64,000 bases of DNA from Leptolyngbya sp. NIES-3755 (GTDB taxonomy: Bacteria > Cyanobacteriota > Cyanobacteriia > Leptolyngbyales > Leptolyngbyaceae), in NCBI GenBank assembly GCA_001548435.1, contig AP017308.1, positions 1,001,030 to 1,065,029 on the forward strand, given 5' to 3'. Below, in pieces: positions 30,284 to 34,251 of the stretch. The translations under genes and the position numbers were made by a program. The notes beneath the pieces are model-generated. The model was not told where the DNA came from and did not search any database. It saw nothing but the letters and a program-made list of their open reading frames with translations. Position 1 is the stretch's first letter. Each line of letters opens with the position of its first letter.

Positions 30284-31921
30284 TCACACTTGATTTTTCA
30301 ATCCGACTGTAGCTTTAAATCCGTCCAGGTGGATAGTGTTTTCCCATCGTTGCCGGAACACTTCGTACAATGTCATTCCTGCTGCTACAGAGGCGTTGAG
30401 GCTGGGCGTAGTGCCATGTAGTGGAATCGATACCAGTACATCACATCCGCGCTGCGTCATCAATCCTAAACCTTCCCCTTCTGCGCCGATCACCAACACC
30501 GAAGCTTTCGCAAATTTTACCGTATGAATCGGCTGACTGGATTCAGAAGCAGTGCCATAAATCCAAAATCCAGCGGCTTTCAGGTCTTCAAGAGCACGTC
30601 CCAGATTAACCACTCTAGCAACGGGAAGTTTCTCGATCGCGCCTGCTGCAACTTTCATCACGGTCGAAGTCACACCGACTGCACGACGCTGCGGGATCAC
30701 GATTCCTTGCGCTCCCAAAGCTTCTGCCGTCCGAATGATTGCACCTAAGTTATGGGGATCAGTAATGCTATCAGCAACAACAATCACAGGCTGGTCGGTT
30801 GCTGCTTTCGCACGAACAATCAAATCACCCAGTTCAGTGTACTCATAAGCTGCGATTTGTGCTGCGATCCCCTGATGATTTGCACCATGAGTGATTTGAT
30901 CTAATCGCTTCGGAGTAACTTCATCGATTACAGTTCCGTTTGCTTTTGCTTGATTAAGCAAAGAAAGATAACGGGGATCGTAGTGAAGCTTTTCTGTAAC
31001 CCAAATGCGATTCAGCGATCGTTCACCCTGCATTGCACTCAGCACCGGATGACGACCATAAATCAAATCGGGTGCATCATCAGTTTCAAACGGTTCATCC
31101 TGTCCAACAAAGTGCCGAGGAATATCAGCACGTTCTTGCTCAGCTAAACGATCGCGCTTTGCATCATTCTGAGAGCGATCGAATTTGTTGAAGTCGCCTC
31201 TCGGACGATCGAAGTTCCGTCTTTCGCCATTGTCACGATCAAAGCTGCGTCTTTCCCCGTTAAATTCTCTCTTCGGACGATCGAAACTGCGTCTCTCACC
31301 GTTATCTCGATCGAAGTTTCGTCTTTCGCCGTTGAATTCACCTCTCGGACGATCGAAATTCCGCTCACGCCGCTCCCCGTTGAATTCGCCTCTCGGACGA
31401 TCAGAGTTTCGTCTTTCGCCATCGAATTCTCTCTTTGGACGATCGAAGCTGCGTTTCTCGCCATCAAATTCTCTTTTCGGACGATCGAAGCTCCGACGTT
31501 CTCCGTTAGATTCGCCTCTGGGTCGATCGAAGCTGCGTTTCTCGCCATCAAATTCTCTCTTTGGACGATCAAAGCTCCGTTTTTCGCCATTATCACGATC
31601 AAAGTTCCGACGCTCTCCGTTAGAGTCTGAACGTTTCTCGAATCGCCCTTTTGATTCATTTCTCGGACGATCGAAGCTTCTTTCCTTGCGTTCGTAGCGT
31701 CCATTAGAGTCTGGGCGGTCGAAGCTGCGACGATCCCCATCGGAACTGCGGTCACGTCCCCGTGTGGCGGAGCCATCGCGCTTTTCATAAGAGCCTTGAG
31801 AATCATCATTGCGGCGTTTGGGATTGCTTGGGCGCTTTCCTTTGAAGTTGGGTTTTTTACCGCCAAAGTCACGATTTGACCGACCTTGCGAGTCGGCGTT
31901 GCGGTTATTCGGATTAGCCAT
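30284..31921 (-). CDS. rlmB: RlmB-type 23S rRNA 2'-O-ribose methyltransferase with a long repetitive N-terminal tail
   Basis: A 545-residue protein, about twice the E. coli RlmB length. Residues 1-270 are a disordered tail of Arg, Asp, Phe, Gly and Lys, with about a dozen units like [14 protein letters not shown]. Residues of about 275-355 are the substrate-binding domain ([20 protein letters not shown]) and about 370-530 the SPOUT methylase: [19 protein letters not shown], then [10 protein letters not shown] and the knot segment [18 protein letters not shown]. RlmB methylates G2251 in the peptidyl-transferase P loop; target here is inferred. The tail resembles RGG-like RNA-binding sequences. 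The mini-RNase III gene lies just upstream on the same strand, 72 bp away, a pairing often seen, fitting rRNA maturation. Confidence 0.93.
31184..31690. repeat. Degenerate tandem repeats coding the RlmB tail
   Basis: Units of about 42-48 bp recur, each with a CGGACGATCGAA-type core and a GTTTCTCGCC/TCTTTCGCC-type block. They encode the (K/R)[10 protein letters not shown](D/N)GE repeats. Repeat copies are close but not identical. Near-copies allow slippage, so length probably varies between strains. Confidence 0.85.
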
Positions 31922-31993: not shown

Positions 31994-32437
31994 TTATTCA
32001 AAACTGAGAAATTCTAACAGTTCAAACAAACGATTCGGGTCAGTCAAATACAGATAACCAATTAATGCTTCTAGGCTGGTGGCGTTTTGGTAAATTTCGG
32101 GGTCAAGGCGTTTTGGGCGATTCAAGGCAGCATTTCGACCACGTTTTAGAAACTCATGTTCAGACTCGCTTAGATGGGGCATGAGCGATCGTAAATGGGA
32201 TGCCTGGGTTTCTGCCCTCACTTGTGACACAACTTGCTGATGATAAATCTCAGACCGCTTGGGTGGCAATAGACATCGCCTCCGAATATACAGTTCGTAA
32301 ACTGCGTCCCCCAAATAGGCAAAGGCAGCCGGAGAAAGCCGCTGGATCTCAGACGAGGAAGGTACAGGCAACACTGTAGATATGTCCAAAATCCCTAACT
32401 CATTCGATGAGATCACATTTTCTCCAACTCCGCACAA
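31994..32437 (-). CDS. mrnC: Mini-ribonuclease 3
   Basis: A 147-residue RNase III catalytic domain without the double-stranded RNA-binding domain. The core helix LSPAAFAYLGDAVYELYIRR carries the conserved Asp, and ATSLEALIGYLYLTDP the second acidic motif (EALIG). RGRNAALNRPKR is typical of the family. Mini-III trims 23S rRNA ends in Bacillus and relatives in chloroplasts act on rRNA and intron RNA. Upstream of rlmB on the same strand, so the two may form an rRNA-processing operon. The N-terminal 15 residues before LGILDIS are not conserved; a later start is possible. Confidence 0.9.
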   Translation of the reverse strand: MCGVGENVISSNELGILDISTVLPVPSSSEIQRLSPAAFAYLGDAVYELYIRRRCLLPPKRSEIYHQQVVSQVRAETQASHLRSLMPHLSESEHEFLKRGRNAALNRPKRLDPEIYQNATSLEALIGYLYLTDPNRLFELLEFLSFE

Positions 32438-32542
32438 CGTTCAAAGCCTATTTATCCTAGCAGACCGCAAAAAAACCGACTATCCTCTAGGGCGGCGGTT
32501 CTCTTGATTCAAAATAACATCGAACTTTCTGTGAACGAGGAG

Positions 32543-32574
32543 AACTGCCTAATCTCAATAAGAAGTAGGCAGTT
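32543..32574. terminator. Hairpin downstream of the STAS gene
   Basis: AACTGCCTA (32543-32551) pairs with TAGGCAGTT (32566-32574), a 9-bp stem with a 14-base loop. It lies 17 bp past the STAS stop on the minus strand. No long U-run follows on that strand, so termination strength is uncertain. Confidence 0.5.
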
Positions 32575-32590
32575 TTACCTCAGAGTGAAT

Positions 32591-32971
32591 CTAGCTTCCC
32601 GTCTTAGGTTGGACATTCTCGATCGCTTGATCCACGGACGGTTGCAGCGCTAAGAATTGCTCTAAGCGAACAAGCTTGACCGTCTGAGTAACGCGAGCGT
32701 TCGTCACAATCTGAAGGGTTCCCTCGGCTTGCTGTGCTTTTTTGGCAACTTGTACCAAAGCACCCAAACCAGAACTATCAACGAAATCGATCTTGGACAG
32801 ATCTAAAATGACGTGTTTAGGACCATCCTCAACACATTTTGTCAGTACCTTCCGAAAGGTCGGTTCCGAAAAGGCATCGAGTTGTCCTACGAGGCGAAAG
32901 AGTTGGTATGTGTTGTCCCTAACTTCGCGTGTGCCTCGAAGACTGACTGTTAGGGTTAGTTGCTCAGGAAT
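32591..32971 (-). CDS. STAS-domain anti-sigma factor antagonist, apparently ATT-initiated
   Basis: A 126-residue STAS protein: LTVSLRGTREVRDNTYQLFR, LVGQLDAFSEPTFRKVLTK, then HVILDLSKIDFVDSSGLGAL with the phosphorylatable Ser in DSSGLGAL, and NARVTQTVKLVRLEQFLALQ. Such proteins release a partner kinase or sigma factor when dephosphorylated. In-frame TAG at 32981-32983 bounds the frame, and no ATG, GTG, TTG or CTG occurs in the first 50 codons before the conserved domain. The only candidate start is ATT at 32969-32971, preceded by AGGAGG (32977-32982) at 5-base spacing. A single-base sequence error is the alternative. It would be missed by standard gene callers. Confidence 0.85.
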   Translation of the reverse strand: MPEQLTLTVSLRGTREVRDNTYQLFRLVGQLDAFSEPTFRKVLTKCVEDGPKHVILDLSKIDFVDSSGLGALVQVAKKAQQAEGTLQIVTNARVTQTVKLVRLEQFLALQPSVDQAIENVQPKTGS

Positions 32972-32973
32972 AG

Positions 32974-32982
32974 CCCCCTCCT
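32974..32982 (-). promoter_or_regulatory. Strong ribosome-binding site deciding the ATT start
   Basis: AGGAGGGGG, read on the minus strand, ends two bases before ATT. It is the best Shine-Dalgarno match seen near any gene here. It positions initiation at 32971 despite the non-standard codon. Confidence 0.7.
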
Positions 32983-33045
32983 ACCGCGTTAACAATACTA
33001 AGTTTTAATTCGACGCTCCAGTATACCCCGTTGCAGTAATATTTG

Positions 33046-34179
33046 CTATTTTTTGTGTTCGCGCATCGATTGAACGAAATTCTCGAACAAATAGTCGGCA
33101 TCGTGTGGTCCTGGACTCGCTTCTGGATGATACTGTACCGAGAACATGGGAAGCGTTTTGTGGCGCAATCCAGCGACGGTTCGATCGTTCAAATTCAAGT
33201 GAGTGATTTCAACAGTAGCATCTGGAAGCGAATCGGCAGCGATCGCGAATCCATGATTTTGACTGGTAATTTCAATTTGCTGGCTCAATCCACAAGGCTG
33301 ATTCAATCCACGATGCCCGAATTTGAGCTTGAACGTCTCCGCCCCAAGCGATAGTCCGAGAATCTGATGCCCCATACAAATGCCAAAAACGGGTTTGTCA
33401 GCTTGTAAAAGGGCTTTGGTCGTTTCGATTCCTTCAGTTACAGCGGCAGGATCGCCAGGACCGTTGGAGAGGAAAATTCCATCGGGATTGTATTTAAGAA
33501 TTTCTTCCGATGGCGTGTTCACAGGAACGACAATCACCCGGCAACCGTAACTCGCTAATCGACGGAGAATATTGCGCTTAATGCCGAAATCAAGTGCTAC
33601 TACAGTCATTTGATCGCCATCTGTCGGAGTCGCGCTAAATTCCCAAATGGTCTCAGTTTTCTCTGACCACTCATAAATTTTGGTCGTGCTGACTTCTTTC
33701 ACTAAATTCAAGCCCGCCATGCTCGGAGCATTTTGAACCTGTTCGAGCAATTCAGCGGGATCGAGAATTTCAGTTGAAATCGCACCGTTCATTGCACCGA
33801 TCGATCTTAATTTCCGAGTGAGTGCACGAGTATCAATTCCGTAGATTCCTGGAAGATTATGGCGTTTGAGATAATCGGGGAGGGATTCGGTCGATCGCCA
33901 ATTGCTCGGTCGATCGCAGATGTTTCGAGCAATCACACCGCGCACATGAGGCACGTCCGACTCTTCATCATCCGGATTCACGCCCGTATTTCCAAGCTCT
34001 GGATAAGTAAATGTCACAATCTGACCCCGATAGCTCGGATCAGTCATGACTTCTTGATAACCCGTCATTCCGGTATTAAACACGACTTCCCCGATCGTGG
34101 TTCCCGTCGCGCCAAACGAGGAACCACAATAAGTTGTGCCATCAGCCAGCACAAGTAAAGCAGGTTGAGCAGAGGACAT
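33046..34179 (-). CDS. carA: Carbamoyl-phosphate synthase small subunit
   Basis: The glutaminase subunit, supplying ammonia to CarB for carbamoyl phosphate used in pyrimidine and arginine synthesis. Of 377 residues, about 1-150 are the CPSase-specific domain ([36 protein letters not shown]). Then follows a class I glutamine amidotransferase domain: SNGPGDP, the nucleophile Cys in [15 protein letters not shown] and the His-Glu pair in [12 protein letters not shown]. The ATG at 34179 was preferred to a TTG 12 bp upstream. Divergent from the protease gene at 34302; carB is not in the window. Confidence 0.96.
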
Positions 34180-34251
34180 AAACAGAGGCAACTACAAAGA
34201 TCTCATCATTATTATCACGTCTGCCCAGAGTTGCAAGGGGTCTCTAAGCTT

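Follow-up and report, generated by a model that had tools for sequence, protein, structure and literature searches.

A gene for a STAS anti-sigma factor antagonist in Leptolyngbya sp. NIES-3755, very probably the orthologue of Synechocystis Ssr1600, almost certainly begins with an AUU codon, and a weak start of the class discriminated against by initiation factor IF3 appears to be maintained at this site among its cyanobacterial orthologues. The best explanation as a whole, which we regard as probable, is that the AUU/AUC/AUA class of an AUU-started Ssr1600 orthologue has been kept because it would hold the antagonist scarce and would make its synthesis dependent on IF3 and on the 30S subunit. 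The assignment of the start site, its conservation, the Shine-Dalgarno sequence and the orthology all rest on comparison of sequences. The gene lies in a stretch of 64,000 nucleotides analysed as a whole (hereafter, the window), where the features bearing on its start are the following:

32591..32971, minus strand: gene for the STAS anti-sigma factor antagonist, very probable Ssr1600 orthologue, 126 codons plus stop, beginning at ATT
32969..32971, minus strand: putative ATT start codon, AUU, AUC or AUA in 314 of 317 distinct orthologous sequences
32977..32982, minus strand: Shine-Dalgarno sequence AGGAGG, 5 nt ahead of the ATT
32981..32983, minus strand: in-frame TAG, overlapping the Shine-Dalgarno sequence, four codons upstream of the ATT and ruling out a start further upstream
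32768..32779, minus strand: D-S-S-G codons, the phosphoserine motif of anti-sigma antagonists

The preliminary description of this DNA had proposed a frame bounded upstream by TAG, a Shine-Dalgarno sequence AGGAGG 5 bases ahead of an in-frame ATT, and the absence of ATG, GTG, TTG and CTG ahead of the conserved STAS part. All three points were verified, with the stop codon at 32983-32981, the AGGAGG at 32982-32977 and the ATT at 32971-32969; after the TAG, none of the four codons precedes codon 43 (the earliest CTG), and the earliest ATG, GTG or TTG is codon 69 (a TTG at 32767), just past the D-S-S-G motif. In the organism's own assembly, the letters are identical to those of the window (single copy, 100%).

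The window protein scores 68.2 bits against PF01740 (cut-off 22.6) and 64.5 bits against TIGR00377 (cut-off 53.45); against the SpoIIAA equivalog TIGR02886 it reaches 44.2 bits, below the curated cut-off of 114.75. The structure model of one orthologue (L125), built with a 15-row alignment, has a pLDDT of 93.6, and its top-ranked structural match is SpoIIAA in the SpoIIAB complex (1tid chain D, TM 0.85); residues 2-4 are modelled as a strand. SpoIIAA and RsbV resemble the window protein in fold and domain; control through the start codon is not known in that family. Residues D64 S65 S66 G67 are invariant in 15 of 15 aligned orthologues, with a phosphorylatable Ser predicted, and the Ssr1600 residues at the phosphoserine motif are S59/S60 (PMC12329169).

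Orthology was assessed by comparing the window protein with the twenty numbered Ssr1600 residues quoted in the accessible text of PMC12329169. The protein fits 19 of the 20 at a constant offset of 7, the second-best offset accounting for 4 of 20. The offset of 7 is due to a one-residue insertion in the window protein; for 294 of the 317 sequences the optimum is an offset of 6, and some orthologues fit all 20 residues. Since the residue numbers fit at one constant offset, the window gene is very probably the Ssr1600 orthologue. Ssr1600 of Synechocystis PCC 6803 shares the STAS fold and the serine motif with the window protein, and differs in its published numbering, in which residue 1 seems to fall on codon 7 of the AUU-started frame, i.e., six codons late (PMC12329169). 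The published Ssr1600 frame, and the constructs based on it, may thus miss the first six residues; neither "start codon" nor "AUU" appears in the main text of that paper.

Translation from ATT, the central claim of the preliminary description, is strongly supported by the comparison of the 317 distinct orthologous sequences. The codon at the start site is AUU in 201 of them, AUC in 58, AUA in 55, CUG in 2 and UUG in 1, and neither AUG nor GUG occurs in any of the 317. The alignment of orthologues that had been suggested as a check places 314 of the 317 in the AUU/AUC/AUA class, and 316 have a start other than AUG, GUG or UUG, the start being assigned by comparison. In E. coli, AUU, AUC, AUA and CUG are near-cognate starts that IF3 discriminates against. 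The sampled orthologues range from Gloeobacterales to a small-genome family (f19). On a FastTree tree of the gene minus its start site, the start codon changed at least 26 times, twice out of the AUU/AUC/AUA class; an internal conserved Ile codon of the same genes (303 sequences) changed at least 63 times, so there has been time enough for the start codon to change. AUA is a single transition away from AUG, yet AUG was never reached. As the initiator inserts formyl-methionine, an AUG at the start would leave the protein unaltered, whereas an AUG in place of the internal Ile codon would modify it; we infer that the avoidance of AUG reflects selection on initiation itself.

Some variants at the start site deserve separate mention. 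The CTG start occurs in one genus (G151, G510; loci L128, L187, L312, L314), with the Shine-Dalgarno sequence unchanged. The sole TTG is that of L390 (genome G454, family f19), a natural canonical-start variant. In L273-L276 (family f19, genus g33), a TAA stands two codons ahead of the ATA with an ATC between them, and the start could be either codon. The gene had no match in 16 of 121 genomes of family f19, many of them incomplete and some 95-99% complete.

The 317 distinct sequences were obtained from 339 tallied loci by merging identical gene sequences. A first set, taken from the 225 genomes with a match among 386 of the phylum, supplied 150 loci (L002-L151); L001, which duplicates the own locus, was omitted. 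Three groups of matches stayed outside this set: those labelled "same phylum", each with an E value weaker than 1e-11; G105, which belongs to the same class and reached a best E of 2.9e-6; and the f19 genomes that did not come up again in a second draw from family f19. Further loci were added from titled entries (the best 80 of a longer list, PCC 6803 not among them), from family f50 (six of six genomes, the leader of L271 being identical to that of the Gloeobacterales MAG locus L188), from family f19 (90 loci; of the 105 genomes that matched, several others had already entered with the first set, while G488 and G499, at least, were omitted) and from family f13 (14 of 15 genomes matched, 13 used). 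Eleven loci were placed by a looser motif search after the first had missed them, and four loci with N-terminal insertions, plus L088 at a contig edge, were placed by hand. An outgroup of ten genomes of the phylum from outside the window's class yielded distant STAS proteins only (at most 34% identity), which were taken as non-orthologous and their starts omitted.

A Shine-Dalgarno core ahead of the start site is conserved as well, unlike the bases beyond it. By the motif list used, a Shine-Dalgarno-type core is present in 317 of 317 sequences, as AGGAGG or longer in 188 and as weaker cores elsewhere (GGGG is the sole core in 46). It lies 5 nt from the start in 181 sequences and 9 nt away in 82. 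As these two spacings do not differ by whole codons, the Shine-Dalgarno sequence is non-coding. Among the 206 sequences outside family f19, each base of the AGGAGG at -11 to -6 is present in 88-97%, and T is preferred at -2 (69%) and -1 (77%); codon-type conservation sets in only after the start site. A frameshift from an upstream frame was considered and discarded, since no position from -36 to -12 exceeds about half a bit outside family f19.

STAS paralogues and infC served as controls, the like-for-like yardstick being a canonical codon between the upstream stop and residue 24 or, for infC, upstream of the conserved INER stretch. An ATG is present in this span in 36 of 312 orthologues versus 4 of 4 STAS paralogues of the own genome and 14 of 17 of family f13 (18 of 21 combined); for infC, an ATG is available in 17 of 30 cyanobacterial loci. 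When any of ATG, GTG and TTG is accepted, the counts become 278 of 312 orthologues, 19 of 21 paralogues (all 4 of the own genome and 15 of the 17 from f13) and 30 of 30 infC loci. As 278 of the 312 orthologues also pass this broader yardstick, it is by ATG alone that the gene stands apart from its paralogues and from infC, and the comparison points the same way, yet is weaker than it looks. The two f13 paralogue loci that lack a canonical codon are weakly placed (7 of 20 residues), and one of them has internal stops.

The 30 infC loci came from a search that matched 58 of 59 genomes. A Shine-Dalgarno-like core precedes a canonical codon in 4 of the 30, a count not strictly comparable with that of the antagonist gene, as the scanned span and the motif list differ. 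In 11 of the 30 (L159, L163, L165-L168, L171, L172, L174, L177 and L181), AUU, AUC or AUA stands 11 codons ahead of the INER stretch, sometimes directly after a GTG, and a non-canonical infC start is conceivable there. Some cyanobacteria (e.g., G060, G170, G027 and G404) carry two IF3-type genes, the second of which scores much lower; this may matter for start-codon discrimination.

Synechocystis Ssr1600, when unphosphorylated, binds the anti-sigma factor Slr1861 and frees the growth-limiting SigC; partner switching with an anti-sigma kinase has been reported for Ssr1600/Slr1861, and the SigC switch is sensitive to the dose of Ssr1600 (PMC12329169). Because the switch is dose-sensitive, a low and controlled dose of the antagonist is expected to matter. 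The strong Shine-Dalgarno sequence would position AUU as the translation start, the IF3-rejected codon would keep the antagonist in short supply compared with its kinase/anti-sigma partner, and antagonist synthesis would thereby depend on IF3 and on the 30S initiation state, effects for which the AUU/AUC/AUA class may have been kept across the sampled cyanobacterial families. By analogy with the systems described below, the weak start is likely to keep the antagonist scarce, AUU most likely throttles it through IF3, and a coupling of sigma-factor choice to IF3 or to the state of the ribosome is plausible, as is the dependence of output on initiation-factor balance put forward in the preliminary description.

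Several published systems offer parallels. The sigR gene of Streptomyces starts with GTC, preceded by a long conserved Shine-Dalgarno sequence, and is repressed by IF3; a canonical codon in place of GTC gave constitutive activity, and enhanced translation from GTC under oxidative stress could not be shown by its authors (PMC5472188). Like the window gene, sigR belongs to a sigma switch in which stoichiometry matters and combines a long conserved Shine-Dalgarno sequence with a conserved, misannotated non-canonical start. Unlike it, sigR encodes a sigma factor instead of an antagonist, starts with GTC or GTT and is reported for 34 Streptomyces genomes; the IF3 effect was demonstrated for sigR and is proposed by analogy for the window gene (PMC5472188). 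When the rsbW start of Listeria was mutated to ATA or ATT, rsbW was translated less and SigB activity rose (PMC13068326). An AUU start of infC is known in E. coli and B. subtilis, and that of E. coli is accompanied, as in the window gene, by a strong Shine-Dalgarno sequence (PMC1805508). However, with infC it is IF3 that autoregulates itself, whereas the window product is a STAS protein, which does not fit autoregulation of the infC type.

Alternative readings differ widely in probability. A sequencing or assembly error at 32969-32971 is excluded for practical purposes, since 314 of 317 distinct orthologous sequences, drawn from many assemblies, carry the same codon class. A true start elsewhere, either at an upstream canonical codon or at a TTG or GTG at codon 7, 9 or later, would agree with the published Ssr1600 numbering, which implies a later start (PMC12329169), and canonical codons are indeed available in many orthologues. 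Among the 312 sequences with a known upstream stop, 109 have an in-frame upstream ATG, GTG or TTG, and 263 have one between the start site and residue 24, mostly a GTG or TTG within the coding region; 71 of the 317 have TTG as codon 7. We nonetheless consider such a start very improbable, as these candidates vary in position while the conserved Shine-Dalgarno sequence is fixed to the AUU site. The upstream ones are scattered (the commonest, at -11, occurs 27 times), which makes an upstream start unlikely in general; 203 of the 312 have no in-frame ATG, GTG or TTG between the stop and the start site, 193 not even a CTG, and 44 have the upstream stop within four codons of the start site. In the window itself, the TAG four codons upstream excludes an earlier start, and the next ATG, GTG or TTG is as late as codon 69. 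Initiation at codon 7 was also rejected: its Leu is conserved (97% outside family f19, 99% within it), but TTG encodes it in only those 71 sequences. Furthermore, the codons after AUU are conserved at the protein level, and residues 2-4 are predicted to form a strand in the L125 model.

If AUU is the true start, it might still be an ordinary, efficient start in cyanobacteria, devoid of regulatory meaning. In Nostoc PCC 7120, eight revised genes begin with ATA or ATT and two novel genes with ATA (PMC8557916), and 11 of the 30 infC loci carry AUU, AUC or AUA at one place. This reading is nevertheless improbable, as 18 of the 21 STAS paralogues do have an ATG, and drift among equivalent codons should in time lead to AUG. 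A more serious alternative, although still an unlikely one, is that the AUU sets a fixed low level of antagonist and that IF3 varies too little for any coupling to arise. This would explain the conservation of the start as well as a sensor does; the switch is dose-sensitive, start changes in Listeria rsbW act on level (PMC13068326), and no second control element was seen. Folding around the start was not stronger than in base-shuffled sequences (mean z +0.67, 50 randomly drawn orthologues), and Rfam gave no match at gathering score in 32300-33300. On the other hand, a weak Shine-Dalgarno sequence with AUG would also give low output, whereas here a strong one is conserved together with a weak codon, and AUG is found in 0 of 317 sequences.

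We favour the reading in which the weak start would both limit the antagonist and tie its synthesis to IF3 and 30S initiation. The near-universal retention of so odd a start suggests that its weakness is a control. A broader version of this reading, in which the gene would have acted as a class-wide translational sensor since the common ancestor of the sampled families, Gloeobacterales included, with IF3 per free 30S setting the release of SigC, is tentative and somewhat doubtful; perhaps, in many cyanobacteria, it is the Ssr1600 gene, rather than infC, that would read IF3. A one-base change to ATG is predicted to give more antagonist and slower growth, and the gene offers a clean test of IF3 control over a global regulator. 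Gene callers restricted to ATG, GTG and TTG would misplace the start in most of the genomes examined. To our knowledge, few non-canonical start codons outside infC would be as widely conserved as this one. Experimental work in Synechocystis ties the gene to growth, photosynthesis and inorganic carbon (PMC12329169). A search of article texts on Ssr1600, on cyanobacterial AUU/ATT starts and on IF3 with non-canonical starts found no mention of this start and no test, in cyanobacteria, of a dependence on initiation-factor balance; in the passages covered of a comment published in 2026 on the proteogenomics of Synechocystis, words starting with "ssr" are absent (PMC13339759). This start may already be on record in supplementary data, e.g., among the ATA/ATT genes of Nostoc PCC 7120 (PMC8557916).

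The gene may possess a promoter of its own, and its surroundings are widely shared among the orthologous loci:

33020..33025, minus strand: TATACT, possible -10 box of an own promoter, with a putative leader of roughly 40 nt
33046..34191, minus strand: carA, lying upstream and on the same strand in 190 of the 253 distinct loci whose flank is long enough
31994..32437, minus strand: RNase III-domain protein, encoded next downstream in 241 of those 253 loci
30284..31921, minus strand: rlmB-type 23S rRNA 2'-O-methyltransferase with a long N-terminal repeat, downstream of the gene

Of 315 orthologues, 267 have a hexamer resembling a -10 box between -80 and -20, versus a mean of 56.7 in base shuffles, a comparison that is supportive only, as the pattern was picked after viewing the window. 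A mobile element was considered and set aside: no phage match was found at E up to 1e-5, and the five plasmid records matched at 28.7-35.3% identity, all below 60%. Among the best 80 titled loci, 76 had enough downstream sequence, and these carry the RNase III-domain gene in 76 cases and rlmB in 72; carA is present in 58 of the same 76, counted regardless of upstream flank. We take the RNase III-domain neighbour (31994..32437) to be mini-RNase III-like. A link of the antagonist gene to 23S rRNA maturation through this neighbour and rlmB is suggestive only. The N-terminal extension of the rlmB-type methyltransferase is rich in R, D, S, F and E, with its repeats at about 31144-31872 on the minus strand.
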